Source: Aquamicrobium sp. LC103 (GTDB lineage Bacteria; Pseudomonadota; Alphaproteobacteria; Rhizobiales; Rhizobiaceae). Taken from it: a DNA stretch of 64,000 nucleotides. Below, in pieces: positions 1-10,412 of the stretch (within the stretch, counting starts at the first letter, position 1; every line of letters begins with the position of its first letter). The DNA is taken from positions 1-64,000 of the forward strand of contig NZ_LBCQ02000004.1 in assembly GCF_001014615.2 (NCBI RefSeq). Reading direction: 5' to 3'. The position numbers and the translations under genes were made by a program. Below the pieces are notes generated by a model. That model made no database searches. It was not told where the DNA came from and saw nothing but the letters and a program-made list of their open reading frames with translations.

Positions 1-377
1 TCATGAACTGGCATGACCATGAGGAAGCTAACACAGGTGGCGGGGCGCTGAACATCTCTGGCCCCGTTACCCAGAGAGCGAGGCCCGCCAGGGTGTTGAC
101 TAGAGAGGTTTGGTGACGGGCCTCGTGTCGGAACAGGCCAGTACCGACCTGGTCAGCCTGCCAGAAGCTATCAGAAATGTCACCGAGAGAAGAGAGGCCC
201 GCCAGACGTCTCGGGTAAAGGCAGATGACGGGCCTCATGCCGATGCGGCTTGTATCGGCGGTGTGATGATGCGCCTGAACCGCGGCATTGTCACGTTAGC
301 CATAGAAAGAGGCCCGCCGTGGGAAAAAGCGGGGGGCTGGGACGGCGGGCCTCATGCCGGAACAGGCCGGTGCCGGC
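1..377. repeat. Tandem array of double-hairpin units, cut by the left edge
   Basis: Each unit has hairpin A followed within 1-2 bases by hairpin B. Hairpin A has the conserved stem GAGGCCCGCC / G(A,G)CGGGCCTC: arms at 79-89 with 115-125, 194-203 with 227-236, and 309-320 with 342-353. Hairpin B is about 22 nt, at 127-148, 239-259 and 356-377. A fourth hairpin B sits at 1-22, so its hairpin A lies outside the window. The B stems differ but stay paired: TCATG/CATGA, GTCGG/CCGAC, GCCGAT/ATCGGC, GCCGG/CCGGC. Three of the four loops begin AAC. The A loops (21-25 nt) are unrelated to each other. The period is 112-126 bp. No convincing ORF runs through it. This could be a tandem small-RNA family or a hairpin repeat element; the strand is unknown. 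Confidence 0.7.
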
Positions 378-638
378 AAAACGACTATGCTCCTGAATGT
401 CGGGGAAGACCATAGGGACGACCTTCCCCGACTCCCTTGTCGCGAAAGGCCGTATGAGAGCGTTGGAAAGACCCGTCGCGCGATCCGAACTACCGCGCTG
501 GCTGATTGTTCCCGACTATGTTGGCTTCCGCGTTACGTCCACAGATGCTTTGCTTCACGCTTGAGCCGATCGCGGTCGTTGCCAAACTTGATCAGGCGAC
601 GGGCTACATCGAGTGCGATCCCATTCCACAAAGAAATG
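378..638. other. Gene-free stretch between hairpin array and DUF6894 gene
   Basis: Apart from the hairpin at 399-432, nothing clear is visible. A 32-codon reading frame on the minus strand (533-631) has protein-like composition but only a TTG start and no good ribosome binding site. It is not called as a gene. Confidence 0.4.
399..432. terminator. Perfect 10-bp hairpin after the repeat array
   Basis: GTCGGGGAAG at 399-408 pairs with CTTCCCCGAC at 423-432 across a 14-nt loop. It lies 21 bp past the last array unit and differs in sequence from it. No T-run follows, so it is not a classic intrinsic terminator. It may end array transcription from the left or be a separate structure. Confidence 0.35.
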
Positions 639-866
639 CTAGAGCTTTACAAATGCACGAGCGGAAAATCGCATCTGAGCGATTGGCTCGCCCGCCTCGT
701 CGGTGACGTTCATCGTGAGCGTGGAATTTGGGATAAGCTCGCCATCTGCTTCGCTGAGCATGTCGCTGCAGGCCATTACCGCCTGTTCCCAAGCTTTATG
801 CGCATCGGGCAATTCGATGCCAACCTCATCGTCAGCGTCGTGGGTGTGGAAGAAGTACCGCGGCAT
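639..866 (-). CDS. DUF6894 family small protein
   Basis: A 75-residue protein starting MPRYFFHTHD, the hallmark opening of DUF6894 proteins, which are common in Rhizobiales and of unknown function. The start at 866 is chosen because a GGGAG ribosome binding site lies about 10 bases upstream; the longer frame up to 911 has none. It lies just downstream of the histidine kinase on the same strand. A GGAAC-N16-GGTT element (896-920) lies about 30 bp upstream and resembles the alphaproteobacterial EcfG stress promoter. The product is acidic and has no signal peptide or membrane segment. Confidence 0.8.
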   Translation of the reverse strand: MPRYFFHTHDADDEVGIELPDAHKAWEQAVMACSDMLSEADGELIPNSTLTMNVTDEAGEPIAQMRFSARAFVKL

Positions 867-895
867 GTAAACACGCTCCCGGGGGTTTTGGCGAG

Positions 896-920
896 AACCC
901 ATCTGGAGCACGTTGGTTCC
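896..920 (-). promoter_or_regulatory. EcfG-type (general stress) promoter candidate for the DUF6894 gene
   Basis: On the minus strand GGAAC (920-916) is followed after 16 bases by GGTT (899-896). The known EcfG consensus in alphaproteobacteria is GGAAC, 16-17 bases, CGTT, so the -10 part has one mismatch. It lies in the gap after the kinase stop codon. Confidence 0.4.
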
Positions 921-923
921 TCA

Positions 924-2318
924 TCACTCGATCAAGCGGTCTTTGGGTATTCGGATTGTGATCGTCAGCCCCTCGGATGTGAATTCGCGCCTGAACTCAC
1001 CACCCAGAGCACCGGAGATCGCAGCCTTGGTTAGCAGTGTGCCGAAGCCTTCGTTGTCGGGAGTATAATTTGACGGGAAGGCGCCGTCTTCCTTCCAAAT
1101 GATATGTACGTCTTCATCCGCTTGCGCGCAGCTAACAGCCACACAGGCATCCGAATTTGCAAGAGCGCCATACTTGGCTGCATTCGTCGCGAATTCATGC
1201 AGAAGAAGCGCCAAGTGGGTTACTGCAGGGCCTGACACCACGATATCTTCACCCGTTACCACAACACGGGGCAGCGACGCATCGGAGCTTTGGGTATATG
1301 GGCGGGAAATCGCATCGATGAGTGCATGCAAGCTTGTCGCGACGGGCATTCCGCCGCCACTATCTCCAACGACGGGAAGCGTCAGCGAATGCGCTTGGGC
1401 CAATGCCGTGAAGCGCTCGCGCACGGATGTCGCTAGTTGCTCTGCCGAATTTGCCGTTCGAGCGCTTAGCGCCACGAGGCTGCCGGCGAGGGTGAACAGA
1501 TTCTTCACCCGATGATTCATCTCTCTCAGAATAAGGTTCTTCTGATTTTCCGCCCTGCGTCTTTCGGTAACGTCTCGCGCGATCTTCGATGCACCGATGA
1601 CACGTCCGTGTCGGTTGATAATGGGAGAGACAGCCAGCGAGATATCGATGAGCGTACCGTCCTTGCGCCGACGTACGGTCTCGTAATGGTCGACACGTTC
1701 TCCCCGCCGAATTCGCGATAAGATGTCCGGCTCTTCATCTTGCCTGTCCTCGGGGATCAGCATTGTCACCGACTGCCCGACAGCTTCCTCCCTTGTGTAG
1801 CCGAATATCTTCTCGGCGCCGCGGTTCCAATCGGTGATGATGCCATTCAGATCCTTCGCCAGAATGGCATCGTCTGAGGATTCAACAATAGCTGCCAGCC
1901 GGAGAGAGCTGGTCTCGGCGTCCTTGAGTTCACTGAGGTCGACGAGCATGTTGATGGCGCCAGTCAGTTGTCCAGCGCTATCGAAGAGCGGCGTCGGGAA
2001 TGGTAGGAAGGGCACTCTCGTGCCGTCCGGTCGTTCAGCAACCGCCTCTTTTCCGACTATCGGCCGCCGCTCCTTCAGCGCCTGCGCCATTGGACACTGG
2101 TCATGCGGCAGTTCGGTGCCGTCTGGCCAATAGAGTTTCCATGATCCGCAGAACTCGCTTTTGCCAATCTCGGGGTGGACGCCCCACAGCTTTGCTGCAG
2201 CGTTATTGTAAAAGGTGATCCTCCCATGCGCGTCAGTCAGATAGACCGCCGCAGGTATTGATTGCAGCAATTGTTCGGATGTCGGAAGGGCAATCGCAGG
2301 ATAATCGGAAAGGCTCAT
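924..2318 (-). CDS. PAS-PAS HWE-family sensor histidine kinase
   Basis: A soluble 464-residue sensor kinase that should autophosphorylate on histidine and pass phosphate to a response regulator. Two PAS domains lie at about residues 15-130 and 140-260; neither has the LOV cysteine motif. The phosphoacceptor box EMNHRVKN is at about 266-273. The N-box HEFATNAAKYG at about 374 and the later WKE define the HWE class typical of alphaproteobacteria. There is no transmembrane segment and no receiver domain. HWE kinases often feed the PhyR/EcfG stress pathway; no phyR or ecfG gene is in the window, so that link is inference. The start at 2318 is preferred over 2324 because GGAG is then 8 bases upstream. 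Confidence 0.93.
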   Translation of the reverse strand: MSLSDYPAIALPTSEQLLQSIPAAVYLTDAHGRITFYNNAAAKLWGVHPEIGKSEFCGSWKLYWPDGTELPHDQCPMAQALKERRPIVGKEAVAERPDGTRVPFLPFPTPLFDSAGQLTGAINMLVDLSELKDAETSSLRLAAIVESSDDAILAKDLNGIITDWNRGAEKIFGYTREEAVGQSVTMLIPEDRQDEEPDILSRIRRGERVDHYETVRRRKDGTLIDISLAVSPIINRHGRVIGASKIARDVTERRRAENQKNLILREMNHRVKNLFTLAGSLVALSARTANSAEQLATSVRERFTALAQAHSLTLPVVGDSGGGMPVATSLHALIDAISRPYTQSSDASLPRVVVTGEDIVVSGPAVTHLALLLHEFATNAAKYGALANSDACVAVSCAQADEDVHIIWKEDGAFPSNYTPDNEGFGTLLTKAAISGALGGEFRREFTSEGLTITIRIPKDRLIE

Positions 2319-2555
2319 TGGCATTCTCCGGAGTTGATGAATTCCGGTCGCCTAAGCCGAACCGTGCCTGCTTCTACAGACAGCAAAGCCTTTAATTTGT
2401 GGCACGGCATCTCAATTTAAGCAATTGCGGATATTAGGCGAGCCTCCTTGCAGAGGATCCACACGCCTGGAAGATTCCTTTGTCTGCGTACGGCCGGGGG
2501 TCTTTTTGTCGTTTTGAGACATTGACGGTGTGGTGCCAGGTTCTACTTCTTCATC

Positions 2556-2953: not shown

Positions 2954-3163
2954 ATGCCACTCCGACACCTTCTCCAAGAATACAATATCGATTCGATGGA
3001 CGCCGCAGTTATCGAGGCTCTGTTCAATCAAGGTGCGTTCCCCGGCGAAACGAAGCAAGACCGCTATGACAGGGCGAAGCTGCTCATCGAACTCTTCGCG
3101 TCGGGCGTGCGGGATAAGGATGCGCTGATAGCCGCGCTTACGAGGATCAGAAAGGCAAGCTGA
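2954..3163 (+). CDS. Hypothetical small protein
   Basis: A 69-residue, mostly helical soluble protein (starts MPLRHLLQEYNIDSMD). The start at 2954 has AAGGAAG about 7 bases upstream; a longer frame from 2852 lacks this. The pattern of acidic, leucine-rich helices resembles small rhizobial regulatory or stress proteins, but no named family is recognised. No partner is evident from the neighbours. Confidence 0.6.
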   Translation: MPLRHLLQEYNIDSMDAAVIEALFNQGAFPGETKQDRYDRAKLLIELFASGVRDKDALIAALTRIRKAS

Positions 3164-4457: not shown

Positions 4458-4529
4458 TGATATGCAATGCCCTCAAACACAGGGCTTGCGCGTTTTTGCT
4501 TAGATGCCCTCGCGAACGCAGGGGCGGAT

Positions 4530-7500
4530 ATGCAGAAAGCTACTCTTTTCAGCGCGAACACAGGTCTCCGCGACCCTATCGATAAAAAACCCCGACCGGG
4601 TTCACAGCAGCGCCTTCGGATTGCACTCCTCACTTCGAGCGCTATCATCGGCGTCGTCAGTCTTTCCAATCCGTCTCCCGCGACCGCGCAGCAAGTCATC
4701 GACGACGGGAATATACATTACGTCCCCCAAGACTATTCCAGCCCATGGGATATCTCCGGCGATCTCATCGTCGGCAATCATCATACGGCATCCCTCATCA
4801 TTCGAGACGGCGGCGATGCCAGTGCCACACGCCTCTACCTTGGCTTTGGTGCCGGTTCGGTCGGATCGGCAGCGCTCGTCGGCTCGGGAACAAGCTGGCG
4901 AAGCGAGGATCTGGTGATCGGGCGGCAGGGAACCGGCCATTTCACCGTGGCGAACGGCGAGGCATCCTCGAATCGAACCTACATAGGCCTCCTCTCAGGC
5001 TCGCAAGGCACGGCGTTCGTGCGCGGCGCGGACGCGGTCTGGGACGCCGGCTTCCTCAATATCGGTGCTGCCGGCGCCGGATTTCTGACGGTCGAGAGCC
5101 AGGCGACTCTCAACAGCAGCAACGCCATCATAGGAACGTCCGAAACCGCGGCCGGAACGGTCTCCGTAACTGGCCCCGGCTCGCTCTGGTCCACTTCCGA
5201 TCTGACGGTCGGGCTTGCGGGCGACGGCACGCTCGCGATCGAGAATGGCGGACGGGTGCTGACCGGCAGCCAGGCGATCGTCGGACAGGCCTACGGCAAG
5301 AACGGCACGGTTAGTGTGACCGGTTCGGGATCGATGTTCGAGAATGCCGATCGCCTTTATATCGGAGCCGGCGGAGGGGGCACGCTCGATATTTCAGCCG
5401 GAGGAGCCGCCAGCGCCCGGTTCGTCGACATCGGGTTTGTCAGTGACGGTTCGGTTCTTGTGACCGGCAGCGGGTCGTCCCTCGAAGCGACTACGGTCAC
5501 CCTTGGCTATAACGGTTCGGGCACGCTCAGGATCGCCGACGAAGGTCAGGTGACGACGGCCAACGGCGTCCTCGGCGGATATGCGAACGGCACCGGTATC
5601 GCGACGGTGACGGGAGCGGGTTCGCACTGGACAACGTCTGGAACGATGAACGTCGGCATGGAGGCAGTCGGTGAACTCAACATAGAGAACGCCGGCCGCG
5701 TCACGTCGGCCCAGGGCATTATAGGCAGTGCCGGGAGGGGTTCCGGTACGGTGAAGGTGACCGGCGGCGGCTCGTCATGGGACATTCTCGACAACGGGAG
5801 TCTGGGAAACCTGCATGTCGGATATGGAGCGAACGGAACCCTGAACATCGCCGCCGCCGGCACCGTCACGTCGACCTATGGGCACATCGGTAATCTGTCC
5901 AGCGGTATAGGCACCGTCAACGTCGGCGGTCCGACCTCCAGTTGGCAAAATGCGCGAACACTTGCCGTTGGCGGAGAGGGGCAAGGCACCCTGACGGTTA
6001 CCGGCGGGGGCATCGTTACGAGCGAGTCTAGCACCATCGGACAATTCATCGGCTCGAATGGTTCAGCCACCGTGACGGGAAGCGGTTCGCGCTGGAGCAA
6101 CAGCAACAATCTCACGATCGGAGGCAATGGCACAGGAGCGCTCGAGATCGCGGATGACGGTCTCGTGGAGAATGCCCGTGCGCATATTGGTTCCGGGGCC
6201 GGCTCAACCGGCTCTGCCGTGCTCTCCGGTGGAGGGACCTGGACAAACACCGGTGAGCTGGTGGTCGGTTTCGGCGGCGAAGGTTCGCTGGACATCGGTG
6301 GCGGTAGCACCGTCAGCGCCACCGAACTTTCGGTCGCCCGAAACGTGGGCTCGACCGGTGCGGTGACTGTTACGGGCGACGGTTCGATTTGGACTACCCA
6401 CGGGGCCCTCAATGTCGGTTTGCGCGGCACCGGTACGCTGGCCATCGAAGATGGCGGCAAGGTCGAGAGCATTTGGAGTTATGTGGGCAACGGGACCGGC
6501 TCGACCGGAACGGTAATGGTTTCAGGCGACGACTCGGTCTGGTCCAACTCCCTCCTGGTGGTCGGCGAGCTTGGCAGCGGCACGATGAACATCGAGGCCG
6601 GAGGGAAAGTCGAGAACATCAACGGCTATGTGGGCTTGTCGTCGGGATCGTCGGGCACGGTGGCCGTTTCGGGCGAAGGCTCGCTCTGGACCAATTCCGG
6701 CATCCTTCAGATCGGCGGTTCCGGTAATGGCGAACTGGCCATCGAGAGTGGTGGCAGGGTCGAGAACAGCTCGAGCTATGTGGGCTTTGCGTCGGGGGTG
6801 TCCGGCACCGTGGCGGTTTCGGGCAGTGGTTCGGTCTGGTCCAACTCCGGCACTGTCTCCGTCGGCGCTGCGGGCATCGGCTCGTTGGGCGTTTCGGATG
6901 GCGGCAGCGTCTCCGTCGCAAACGGCTCGGGTAGCATTGCGCTGGCGCGAGATGGTTTTGGGATCGGGACCATCAATATCGGTGCTGCCTCGGCGGATCC
7001 GGGCGATGCGATCGGGGCGGGAGCACTGCATGCCGGGCGGGTCGAGTTCGGCATAGGTGCCGGTGCGCTGAACTTCAATCATACCGAAAGCGCATACGAT
7101 TTCGAGCCGTCGCTGGCGAGCACGCGTATAGGTCACCATAGCATCAACCAATATGCGGGAATCACGCGCCTCACCGGGGATAGTTCCGCCTTCGCGGGTA
7201 TGACGACTGTTTCCGGAGGCTCTCTGATCGTCGCCGATCGGCTGAACGGGGCGGCATCGGTGACCGGCGGACGGTTTCAGGCCGACGGAATATTTGGTGG
7301 AAACGTCAACGCCACGGGTGAAGGTGCGGTCTCAGGAACGGGCACGATAACCGGCGATGTGCGGCTCACCAATCGCGGCGTCCTTTCGGGCACGCAAGGT
7401 TCGACGCTGACGATCGGCGGCGATCTTGCCCTGGATGCGGGATCGGACGTGAACGTTACCCTCGGCGGCGCGCCCGCAGAGGCGCTGTTCGATGTCGCCG

Positions 7501-10412
7501 GCGATCTGACGCTGGCTGGCTCGTTGAACGTGATCGACCGGGGCGGGCTCGGGATCGGCGTCTATCGCCTTTTCGATTACGCAGGGAGTCTGACCGACAA
7601 GGGCCTCGCCATCGGCTCGACGCCGGCCGGTATCGAACCGGATGCTCTCTTCATACAGACCTCGGCCGCCAATCAGGTCAATCTGGTTTCCAGCGCCGGG
7701 GCAGAGCTCGGCTTCTGGGACGGTGGCGACGCGGCATTGCGGGACAATGACGCCATCGACGGCGGCTCCGGGAGATGGCGGGCAGATGGGCGTAACTGGA
7801 CGACGATCGACGGAGCGCTCAACGGTCCCTACCGGCCAAATCCGACATTCGCCATCTTCCAGGGACGGACGGGAACCGTCACGGTCGATGCCAGCGCCGG
7901 CGCGATCGGCGCGACCGGCATGCAGTTCGTCACCGACGGCTATCGCATCGAAGGCGATTCCATCTCGCTCGAAGGCATGGGCGGCAAAAGCATCATCCGC
8001 GTCGGCGACGGTACGGCTGGAGGCGCTGCCACGACAGCGACCATCGCCTCGTCGCTGACCGGGTCGTCTCGCCTGGTCAAGACCGATCTCGGCACGCTGA
8101 TTCTGGAAAGTGCGAACAGCTACGCCGGCGGTACGGAACTACGCGCCGGTACGCTTTCGGTTTTCTCGGACGCGCATCTCGGCGCGGCCTCGGGCGACCT
8201 GATCTTTTCCGGCGGCATTCTGAACACCTCGGCGAATTTCGACACGGCGCGCGCGGTGACGCTCGATGCGGCGGGGCGCTTCGATGTCGCCGCCGAAACG
8301 ACGCTCGGCCTGACTGGGACCGTCTCGGGTTCGGGCGACCTCGTAAAGACGGGCTCCGGCACGCTGACGCTCTCGGGCGTGAACAGCTATCAGGGCGATG
8401 CGCTGGTGGAAGCAGGCACGCTGGTTGGCAATGCCGCGTCCGTTCGAGGCAGTATCCGCAACGCTTCGACGGTGATCTTCGACCAGGGCGCCGATGCAGC
8501 CTTTGCCGGCGACATTGCCGGCCTCGGCGGCACGGACGGCCAAATGATCAAGCGCGGCGGCGGCGTTCTCGCGCTTGATGGCGCTTCGTCGCTCGACTGG
8601 ACGGTCGAGGCGGGGGGCCTTGTTTCGGCGTCGGAGCGCTTTTCGGGCGATCTGGCGCTCGGGACGGGCGCTTCCTTCGCCTTCGATCAGAACTACGGCG
8701 GCGCCTATGCAGGCGCGATCTCGGGCGCGGGCGATCTCATCTTTACCGGCGGCGGCGCGGTGCAACTGACCGGTGACAGTTCCGGCTTTACCGGGCTGGG
8801 CACGGTCGAGGGGAGTACACTGATCGTCAACGAGGCGTTCGGCGGCAGCCTCGCCGTCCTTGACGGTGGCGTTCTCGGCGGCGCCGGCACCGTGGGCTCC
8901 GGTGCAGGCTCGATGGTGACCATCGCCTCGGGCGGCATTCTGGCGCCGGGCAACTCCATCGGCAGGCTCAAGGTCGATGGCGATCTGCTGATCGAAGACG
9001 GTTCACGTTACGAGGTGGAAGTAGCCCCGGGCGGCAGCGACAGCGACAGCGTCGCTGTGACGGGGACCGCCACGCTCGAAGGCGGGACGGTCGCCCATAT
9101 CGGTGCCACCGGTGAATATGATCTGCGCTCGACCTACACGATCCTGTCGGCGGGAACCCTGGATGGCGAGTTCGGGGAAGTGACCTCGGATTTTGCCTTC
9201 CTGACGCCGGACCTGATCTATGATTATGGCGCGGGCACCGTCGATCTCGAACTGACGCGCAACGATCGTGATTTTGTTTCCGCTGCAGCGACCCGCAACC
9301 AGATCGCCACGGCAAACGGCATCGAGGGCATAGGTTTGAATGCTGGCCATGCCGTCTATGACGCCATCGCCCAGCTTGCTGATGACGACCAACTGATCCG
9401 TGCCAGCTTCGATGCGCTCTCGGGCGAGATCCACGCCTCGGTACAGACCGCATTAGTCGAGGACAGCCGCTTCATCCGCAACGCCGCCAATGACCGCATC
9501 CGCGCGGCGTTTGCGGTAGCGGGTGCCTCCTACGCACCCGTTCTGGCCTATGGCCCTGGCGTGACGCCGATGGCCGTGGGTGCCGATCATGCCGGTCCGG
9601 TCTTCTGGAGCCACGGTTTTGGCTCCTGGGGGTCGACCAACAGCGATAACAACGCCGCATCCCTCGATCGCTCGATCGGCGGTCTGCTGATCGGCGCGGA
9701 TGGTCTTGTCGGCGATTGGCGCGTCGGCCTTCTGGCCGGCTACAGCCGTTCGACCTTCAAGGCCAATGACCGGGTCTCATCCGGCTCAAGCGACAATTAC
9801 CATCTCGGCCTTTATGGCGGCACTCAATGGGGCGATATCGCGTTGCGCACCGGTGCGGCCTACACTTGGCACGACATCGAGACCAATCGCTCGGTCGCCA
9901 TCCCCGGCCTCTCCGACAGCCTGACCGGCAGCTACGGTGTCGGCACGGTGCAGGCCTTCGGCGAGCTGGGCTACGGCATCGATCTGGGCGATACGCGTCT
10001 CGAACCTTTTGTCAATCTTGCTCATGTGCATGTTCATACGAACAGCTTCACCGAGGCCGGCGGCGCAGCCTTGCTGACTGGTAGCGGCAGAAATACCGAT
10101 GTGACGTTCACCACCCTCGGCGTTCGTGGCGAACACGCCGTGACCCTCGGCAAGATGGAGGTCGCGCTCTCTGGCATGGTGGGCTGGCGACACGCCCTTG
10201 GCGACACCACACCAGAAAGCACCCATGCCTTCTCAGCCGGCGACGCCTTCACCATCGATGGCGGGCCGATCGCCAGGAACAGCGCCGTCATTGAGGCCGG
10301 TCTTGATCTCGACCTCACCCCGGACGCTACTTTCGGGCTGTCCTACCAGGGCCAGTTGGCCTCGGGTGCCCACGACCATGGGTTCAGGGCAAATCTGGCG
10401 ATCAGGTTCTAG
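4530..10412 (+). CDS. Giant autotransporter adhesin with 14 T5SS repeats
   Basis: A 1960-residue type Va secreted protein. The start at 4530 follows GGGGCGG by about 4 bases. A long basic N-region and hydrophobic stretch end at ATAQQ (about residue 54), consistent with an extended signal peptide. Residues about 112-805 are 14 tandem repeats of about 49 residues of the type G(T/S)VxVTGxGSxW...L.VG..G.GTL.I..GG.V, matching the T5SS/PEP-CTERM-associated repeat family. Two passenger-associated transport repeats follow at about 1183 and 1270 (starting LVKTDLGTL and LVKTGSGTL). The last ~270 residues form the outer-membrane beta-barrel and end in phenylalanine. Cell-surface adhesion is inferred. 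No protease triad was noted. Confidence 0.95.
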   Translation: MQKATLFSANTGLRDPIDKKPRPGSQQRLRIALLTSSAIIGVVSLSNPSPATAQQVIDDGNIHYVPQDYSSPWDISGDLIVGNHHTASLIIRDGGDASATRLYLGFGAGSVGSAALVGSGTSWRSEDLVIGRQGTGHFTVANGEASSNRTYIGLLSGSQGTAFVRGADAVWDAGFLNIGAAGAGFLTVESQATLNSSNAIIGTSETAAGTVSVTGPGSLWSTSDLTVGLAGDGTLAIENGGRVLTGSQAIVGQAYGKNGTVSVTGSGSMFENADRLYIGAGGGGTLDISAGGAASARFVDIGFVSDGSVLVTGSGSSLEATTVTLGYNGSGTLRIADEGQVTTANGVLGGYANGTGIATVTGAGSHWTTSGTMNVGMEAVGELNIENAGRVTSAQGIIGSAGRGSGTVKVTGGGSSWDILDNGSLGNLHVGYGANGTLNIAAAGTVTSTYGHIGNLSSGIGTVNVGGPTSSWQNARTLAVGGEGQGTLTVTGGGIVTSESSTIGQFIGSNGSATVTGSGSRWSNSNNLTIGGNGTGALEIADDGLVENARAHIGSGAGSTGSAVLSGGGTWTNTGELVVGFGGEGSLDIGGGSTVSATELSVARNVGSTGAVTVTGDGSIWTTHGALNVGLRGTGTLAIEDGGKVESIWSYVGNGTGSTGTVMVSGDDSVWSNSLLVVGELGSGTMNIEAGGKVENINGYVGLSSGSSGTVAVSGEGSLWTNSGILQIGGSGNGELAIESGGRVENSSSYVGFASGVSGTVAVSGSGSVWSNSGTVSVGAAGIGSLGVSDGGSVSVANGSGSIALARDGFGIGTINIGAASADPGDAIGAGALHAGRVEFGIGAGALNFNHTESAYDFEPSLASTRIGHHSINQYAGITRLTGDSSAFAGMTTVSGGSLIVADRLNGAASVTGGRFQADGIFGGNVNATGEGAVSGTGTITGDVRLTNRGVLSGTQGSTLTIGGDLALDAGSDVNVTLGGAPAEALFDVAGDLTLAGSLNVIDRGGLGIGVYRLFDYAGSLTDKGLAIGSTPAGIEPDALFIQTSAANQVNLVSSAGAELGFWDGGDAALRDNDAIDGGSGRWRADGRNWTTIDGALNGPYRPNPTFAIFQGRTGTVTVDASAGAIGATGMQFVTDGYRIEGDSISLEGMGGKSIIRVGDGTAGGAATTATIASSLTGSSRLVKTDLGTLILESANSYAGGTELRAGTLSVFSDAHLGAASGDLIFSGGILNTSANFDTARAVTLDAAGRFDVAAETTLGLTGTVSGSGDLVKTGSGTLTLSGVNSYQGDALVEAGTLVGNAASVRGSIRNASTVIFDQGADAAFAGDIAGLGGTDGQMIKRGGGVLALDGASSLDWTVEAGGLVSASERFSGDLALGTGASFAFDQNYGGAYAGAISGAGDLIFTGGGAVQLTGDSSGFTGLGTVEGSTLIVNEAFGGSLAVLDGGVLGGAGTVGSGAGSMVTIASGGILAPGNSIGRLKVDGDLLIEDGSRYEVEVAPGGSDSDSVAVTGTATLEGGTVAHIGATGEYDLRSTYTILSAGTLDGEFGEVTSDFAFLTPDLIYDYGAGTVDLELTRNDRDFVSAAATRNQIATANGIEGIGLNAGHAVYDAIAQLADDDQLIRASFDALSGEIHASVQTALVEDSRFIRNAANDRIRAAFAVAGASYAPVLAYGPGVTPMAVGADHAGPVFWSHGFGSWGSTNSDNNAASLDRSIGGLLIGADGLVGDWRVGLLAGYSRSTFKANDRVSSGSSDNYHLGLYGGTQWGDIALRTGAAYTWHDIETNRSVAIPGLSDSLTGSYGVGTVQAFGELGYGIDLGDTRLEPFVNLAHVHVHTNSFTEAGGAALLTGSGRNTDVTFTTLGVRGEHAVTLGKMEVALSGMVGWRHALGDTTPESTHAFSAGDAFTIDGGPIARNSAVIEAGLDLDLTPDATFGLSYQGQLASGAHDHGFRANLAIRF
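4864..6945 (+). repeat. 14 tandem ~147-150 bp coding repeats
   Basis: These are the DNA repeats behind the passenger repeats of the autotransporter. Copies 11-14 start at 6357, 6507, 6654 and 6804. Copies 12 and 14 share the identical stretch TCGGTCTGGTCCAACTCC at 6535-6552 and 6832-6849, which suggests recent duplication or exchange at the 3-prime end of the array. Confidence 0.85.

Follow-up and report, generated by a model that had tools for sequence, protein, structure and literature searches.

Elements of the RIME type are about 108 bp long and carry two palindromes. Under their full name, Rhizobium-specific intergenic mosaic elements, they are listed in PMC2573895 as intergenic repeats of rhizobia, and PMC3733652 mentions REP and BIME palindromes, sometimes in clusters. 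For phages, PMC3029335 refers both to morons with a flanking promoter and terminator and to short conserved boundary sequences between phage modules. The locus described here lies at the start of the window, by which we mean the whole stretch of 64,000 nucleotides from Aquamicrobium sp. LC103 that was analysed. It is a tandem array of units, each formed by a hairpin A, a gap of two bases and a hairpin B. Our best explanation, to which we give about even chances, takes this A+B unit for a composite boundary hairpin, terminator-like and derived from phages of the Rhizobium/Agrobacterium group, that has been repeated in tandem. A viral remnant that ends transcription is more likely than a new small-RNA family. 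The features of the array and its surroundings are the following:

1-16, plus strand: possible fourth B hairpin, stem TCATG/CATGA of 5 bp, loop starting with AAC; weak
about 36-71, plus strand: additional long G+C-rich hairpin between this B (B0) and the A of unit 1, from the predicted fold
80-124, plus strand: A hairpin of unit 1, minus-strand tail GCTCTCTG
127-148, plus strand: B hairpin of unit 1, stem GTCGG/CCGAC
194-236, plus strand: A hairpin of unit 2, minus-strand tail TCTTCTCT
239-259, plus strand: B hairpin of unit 2, stem GCCGAT/ATCGGC
309-353, plus strand: A hairpin of unit 3, minus-strand tail TTTCTATG
356-377, plus strand: B hairpin of unit 3, stem GCCGG/CCGGC
639-911, minus strand: DUF6894 gene, whose transcript would head leftward into the array
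924-2324, minus strand: PAS/HWE histidine kinase gene, in the same direction as the DUF6894 gene

The three units span 80-148, 194-259 and 309-377, start 114 and 115 nt apart and share one orientation, as do the two units found on contig C18. Their A stem of 8-10 bp (GAGGCCCGCC / GRCGGGCCTC) encloses a loop of 23-25 nt, and their B stem has 5-6 bp. An earlier, sequence-only reading had counted four B and three A hairpins in positions 1-377. Three of each were confirmed; the fourth B, with only 5 bp, is plausible but weak. Judged from its sequence it is in register with copies 1 and 3 (GAACTGGC versus GAACAGGC, 7 of 8 bases), and its loop is 6 nt shorter than theirs. The same reading had called the A stem nearly constant; its sequence is near-invariant, and pair 9 is a C-A mismatch in copies 1 and 2. 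It was right that the left copy is cut: base 1 of the window is the first base of contig C29 in a draft assembly of 34 contigs, so that the cut was made by the assembly. A duplicated assembly error would not yield the array, since the window units differ among themselves. The predicted fold of positions 1-380 had a z of −4.48, and none of 100 dinucleotide shuffles was equally stable. The DUF6894 and HWE-kinase genes are directed leftward, and the array lies about 260 nt past their 3' end. No phage gene was recognised among the three ORFs tested to its right, namely these two and one without a family. Further along the window, an ORF of 1981 aa (4467-10412, plus strand) showed, by eye, numerous glycine-rich repeats and a C-terminal end resembling that of an autotransporter.

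Compensating changes maintain the B stem. Between window copies a C-G pair became T-A at pair 2 and a G-C pair became A-T at pair 5, in agreement with the compensated B stems proposed from the letters alone. In the six units of the own genome, 32 of 36 B-stem cells were paired versus 26.8 after re-dealing the 3' arms, a pairing matched by 123 of 20,000 shuffles. For 12 units of our own choosing the count was 61 of 72 versus 51.0, with 0 of 20,000 shuffles as good; in these counts the 3' arms were placed by hand with pairing in view, which favours pairing. In an alignment of 12 units the covariation score was 0.123 versus 0.074 when shuffled (0 of 500 as high), and 4 of 15 pairs had changed on both sides versus 1.5 (13 of 500 as many), all of these shuffles leaving the relatedness among units in place. 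Alignment A6 covers units other than those of the second type and the first units of RR1-A and L075. A 19-unit stem count predates the discovery of L140-L142, and the C9 row contains one hand-typed gap. The A stem is near-invariant in sequence and therefore shows little covariation. In second-type phage units, however, the inner A stem carried paired changes, CGCCAC/GTGGCG versus CGTCGC/GCGACG.

Other copies were present in the same genome of 6.04 Mb. A covariance model, R1, was built from six own-genome units (three from the window, two from C18, one from C9), and among the 150 of 4615 candidates that were scored it gave at least 7 matches at E <=0.001 and at least 13 at E <=1. Besides the three window units, the seven at E <=0.001 comprised the tandem pair on C18, a single copy on C9 and a weak match at the C15 end; the six strong ones, at 58-76 bits, are the very units from which R1 was built. 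A BLAST search with window positions 1-420 recovered the C15, C9 and C18 sites independently of R1. Positions 31-123, which include the long hairpin, recur at the C15 end with 94% identity, 190-303 have a relative in C9 (83%), and 332-377, part of loop 3, have one in C18 (83%). Within the array the A loops are indeed unrelated between copies, as had been described, but on C15, C9 or C18 there is for each of them a relative, if in part only a partial one. The start of C9 also holds an apparent B fragment, and the loci on C29, C9 and C15 touch a contig end or fall within about 330 nt of one. Two paralogous small proteins, MPLRHLLQEYN... and MPLKCLLQEYN..., are encoded at about 2954-3163 of the window and about 436-643 of C9, both on the plus strand and on the same side of the A+B units at the two loci; the window protein had no Pfam or PHROG match.

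Contig C18 links the units to phages. It carries a DUF1515 gene (phrog_5211), a DUF1236 gene, a dCTPase defence-type gene and a further gene that matches an Rz-like spanin (phrog_1026, E 5e-5) and whose best match is of unknown function. Going by the DUF1515 (phrog_5211) and spanin-like genes, C18 is a phage piece. Its anti-phage gene, a dCTPase of the deoxycytidylate-deaminase type (L111, 2641-4308, plus strand; PADLOC E 8.5e-165), has the phage DUF1515 gene on one side and the two tandem units on the other. These units follow a duplicated phage gene end, an additional, incomplete 3' part of DUF1515 whose alignment scored 78 versus 29 for the best of 500 shuffles. On the ORF lists of C9 and C15 no phage gene was recognised by eye. 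Another partial DUF1515 3' end is present on C32 (9139-9219; L115, about 1500-1585), just after a sequence that is tRNA-like by eye, which suggests an old phage insertion scar; the 600 nt read past this 3' end contained no A+B unit.

Related A+B units were found in 11 phages or viral contigs: L073, L075, L090, L091, L099, L139 (cut at its end), L140, L141, L142, RR1-A and Rivra. Pattern scans and DNA similarity were used, and every relative came from a search that required DNA similarity or one of two features of the unit, its A stem or its B sequence. One viral pattern scan gave 4 stretches, with L073 and L075 kept and L074 and L076 dropped on scores; another gave 25, with L073, L090, L091 and L099 kept and 21 dropped on reading; three further scans gave 8 (none kept), 7 (kept) and 4 (previously known). 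The only named hosts are Rhizobium, for phage RR1-A, and Agrobacterium, for phage Rivra. Two units with starts about 290 nt apart occurred in each of RR1-A, L075 and L099. Whole-record searches in 10 of the 11 phages (all but L139) matched 9 at E <=0.1, and all matches above 20 bits were confined to the one border site. A search of the whole Rivra record with model R2 at E <=0.1 missed the unit known to be there, so misses are to be expected.

The right neighbour of the unit was an endolysin-type (lysis) gene in all seven phages that could be judged, the right-side sequence of L073, L139 and L140 being too short for a call. At least five kinds were represented: phrog_7 with Phage_lysozyme in L075, L091 and Rivra, Amidase_2 in L141, phrog_90 in L142, a chitinase/endolysin in L099 and a peptidoglycan-binding protein in RR1-A. 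L090 deviates from this pattern, its unit sitting downstream of the lysis genes. To the left, L075 has a tail-fibre gene and one for tail-fibre assembly, L099 has a tail-fibre gene, and L140 has, behind a tail gene, a long ORF with a lipase domain; L091 carries an acyltransferase gene there, L141 and L142 a glycosyltransferase gene, and Rivra methyltransferase and glycosyltransferase genes. The left accessory genes of L142 head towards the unit, those of L091, L141, Rivra and C18 away from it. The phage relatives thus sit between exchangeable modules, the unit staying in place while both neighbours differ. In L073, 37 nt past the unit match the end of the L075 tail-fibre-assembly ORF with 92% identity; duplicated gene ends such as this one and that on C18 would be the expected trace of cassette insertion at the border. 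L099, L141 and L142 (and L140) share a leader, CACAATCAGGAG, after the second-type unit and just 5' of the start codon, with one base differing in L142. The endolysins that follow it in L099, L141 and L142 belong to different families, which places an exchange point near the start codon.

The apparent kinship between the window array and these phages rests on L090. With its edge, the unit C18a was identical to that of L090 in 66 of 80 aligned columns (9 mismatches, 5 gaps), and a DUF1515 (phrog_5211-type) gene end lies upstream of the unit in both; in L090 the gene is intact and the unit follows about 90 nt on. C18a matched window unit 3 with 83% identity over 46 nt and, in a comparison with 16 short sequences, an Agrobacterium-type unit (78% over 50 nt, E 1e-5). 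R1 scores for phage and plasmid units, where these were found, were 16-36 bits and overlap those of 41 chance-like stretches (18-39 bits) from a pattern scan of genome contigs, 30 of them from Actinobacteria by title.

Array DNA matched 4 of 394 family-wide genomes, the credible ones being the own genome and G370, of another genus of the family, with a B-plus-tail copy (82% over 50 nt); the other two matches were coding DNA by eye. Model R2, with 13 candidates scored per genome, matched 9 of 394, the credible ones being the own genome and one unit in G372. This unit (C21:40047-40121; L120), again in another genus of the family, is a probable single A+B unit. Searches without a positive control found the Agrobacterium block in 0 of 394 family genomes and the second-type B pattern in 0 of 365 genomes. 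Model R1 matched 5 of 61 genomes (the own and 60 relatives) at E <=0.01, and the four non-own matches are read as chance. In L070 (Bosea sp. OK403), the one locus read among the 41 genome-contig stretches, two short-loop A-type hairpins (700-770 and 1250-1310) are 88% alike over 50 nt and similar in stem and tail sequence. The array itself had no match at E 1e-5 in the plasmid collection. For the phage block, matches to part or most of it came from seven plasmid records of Agrobacterium or Rhizobium. Four of these were opened; within 3.5 kb their incomplete gene tables showed no annotated phage gene, and transposases lay near the match in three of the four. The five pAtCG920 sister plasmids share DNA on one side of the unit only and so offer no clean empty site.

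As to termination, at least 4 T in 8 nt followed A on the minus strand in 19 of 22 units with ends set by hand, versus 8.8% of random windows from the same loci, and in 4 of 6 own-genome units. A score weighted for T near the stem exceeded the 95th percentile of the background in 15 of 22 units, in the own genome for 2 of 6, which are window units 2 and 3. Window unit 1 has 3 T in these 8 nt, C18a and L090 have 1. On the plus strand after B, T-runs occurred in 8 of 22 units by count and in 2 of 22 by weighted score, none from the own genome; the second-type units of L099, L140 and L142 have one. These counts leave aside both units of L080 and the near-copy of its first unit in L081, the second unit of L078, the copy on C15, the partial one in L139, the fragment on C9 and the possible B at 1-16. 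A terminator scan of window positions 1-1000, which permits loops of 3-8 nt, found 0 versus 0.7 expected from shuffles, and the window A loops of 23-25 nt are long for a terminator. In the same stretch a promoter scan found two 9-of-12 matches versus 0.3 expected. One of them lies inside the array (minus strand, 266-294), and transcription from within the array is possible. By eye, L090, L091 and Rivra have ordinary terminator-like stems with T-runs close to the unit.

These observations have to be weighed against other readings. One is a host repeat, small, dispersed and intergenic (RIME-, REP- or MITE-like), that would spread by itself with phages as mere carriers; it is possible but on balance unlikely, although it is the strongest competitor. 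The homology of C9 to window copy 2 is of unit size (115 columns, 83%) and runs from the A-rich edge to just short of the next unit, the pAtCG920 unit has no annotated phage gene within 3.5 kb, the B-plus-tail copy of G370 lies in a different genus, and RIMEs are known in rhizobia, as cited above. A repeat that spreads by itself fits poorly with a low copy number (at least 7 matches at E <=0.001 in 6.04 Mb among the candidates scored), with a plasmid collection free of array matches and with strong matches in phage records confined to one site. Nor did the genome contain a Y1 transposase of the REP-associated type, which 5 of 14 control genomes did; few copies and the absent transposase rule out a REP/RAYT system. 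Integron attC sites and CRISPR were considered by their layout only (best CRISPR-DR match E 1.2), and a protein-coding repeat only by the ORFs listed for the array (2-238 minus, 110-415 plus). Much less probable than a host repeat is a series of related small RNAs in tandem, in which every loop would be a targeting part of its own. The sequence-only reading had proposed this, or a family of processing substrates, and a stable fold, compensated stems, loops that differ within the array and the promoter-like match inside it all accord with small RNAs. The proposal is not supported: the loops are common to paralogous loci, and the phage relatives are intergenic hairpins beside lysis genes. Rfam gave no covariance-model match to the array, which rules out its families and agrees with the earlier view that no named family has this layout; nor was the A+B unit found described in the literature searched.

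The units could also form a recombination platform at which phages gain or lose accessory cassettes, the array counting past exchanges. The duplicated gene 3' ends beside units on C18 and L073 would fit, as would a unit that stays constant while both neighbours differ. No recombinase gene, however, was tied to the unit, and homologous recombination at any conserved border would look identical. We consider such a platform improbable. The same low rank goes to its more specific form, a dedicated lysis-side platform of Rhizobium/Agrobacterium-group phages where surface-modifying and anti-phage cassettes are swapped and of which the bacterial arrays would be exchange scars.

We return to the terminator-like phage boundary as the best explanation. 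In the simplest functional reading, the two hairpins would form a terminator-like pair where modules meet, A being directed leftward. Read on the minus strand, A would act as an intrinsic terminator, in a few phages B may terminate on the plus strand, and the unit would thereby insulate phage modules; repeated exchange at the lysis-gene border may have left the tandem copies. In the window the array would stop the leftward transcripts of the DUF6894 and HWE-kinase genes. Several observations temper this reading. A leftward terminator would not end the accessory genes of L091, L141, Rivra and C18, since they run away from the unit, and these outward-pointing genes together with the low weighted T-run scores lower our confidence. 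The lack of phage genes seen beside the window array, or by eye on C9 and C15, and units on plasmids outside an annotated phage context also count against a phage border. If right, the reading would provide a searchable DNA mark for an accessory-gene hot spot in a group of rhizobial and agrobacterial phages, which holds acyl- and glycosyltransferase genes and, in the Aquamicrobium sp. LC103 genome, a dCTPase anti-phage gene. It would also explain compensated hairpin repeats liable to be mistaken for small RNAs.

How does the A+B unit then compare with known systems? It is low in copy number and positioned in phages, which sets it apart from RIME, compared here by description only, and makes it a misfit for a widespread host repeat. 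Like REP and BIME, the array is a cluster of palindromes; unlike REP/BIME with RAYT, it has few copies and no Y1 transposase, and its units are unidirectional in the window and on C18. With intrinsic bidirectional terminators it shares G+C-rich stems, a preceding A-run and, in the second-type units of L099, L140 and L142, a T-run that follows; it differs in having two separate hairpins instead of one shared stem, and T-runs that are weak or absent in several own-genome copies. With morons and boundary sequences it has in common accessory genes at a fixed border with stem-loops and conserved DNA between exchanged modules. Unlike in morons, the accessory genes point away from the A+B unit in four cases, and the border is a two-hairpin unit, of which one bacterial genome carries tandem copies at two loci. 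Morons and conserved module borders are known ideas; the tandem repetition of border hairpins would be the variation here.
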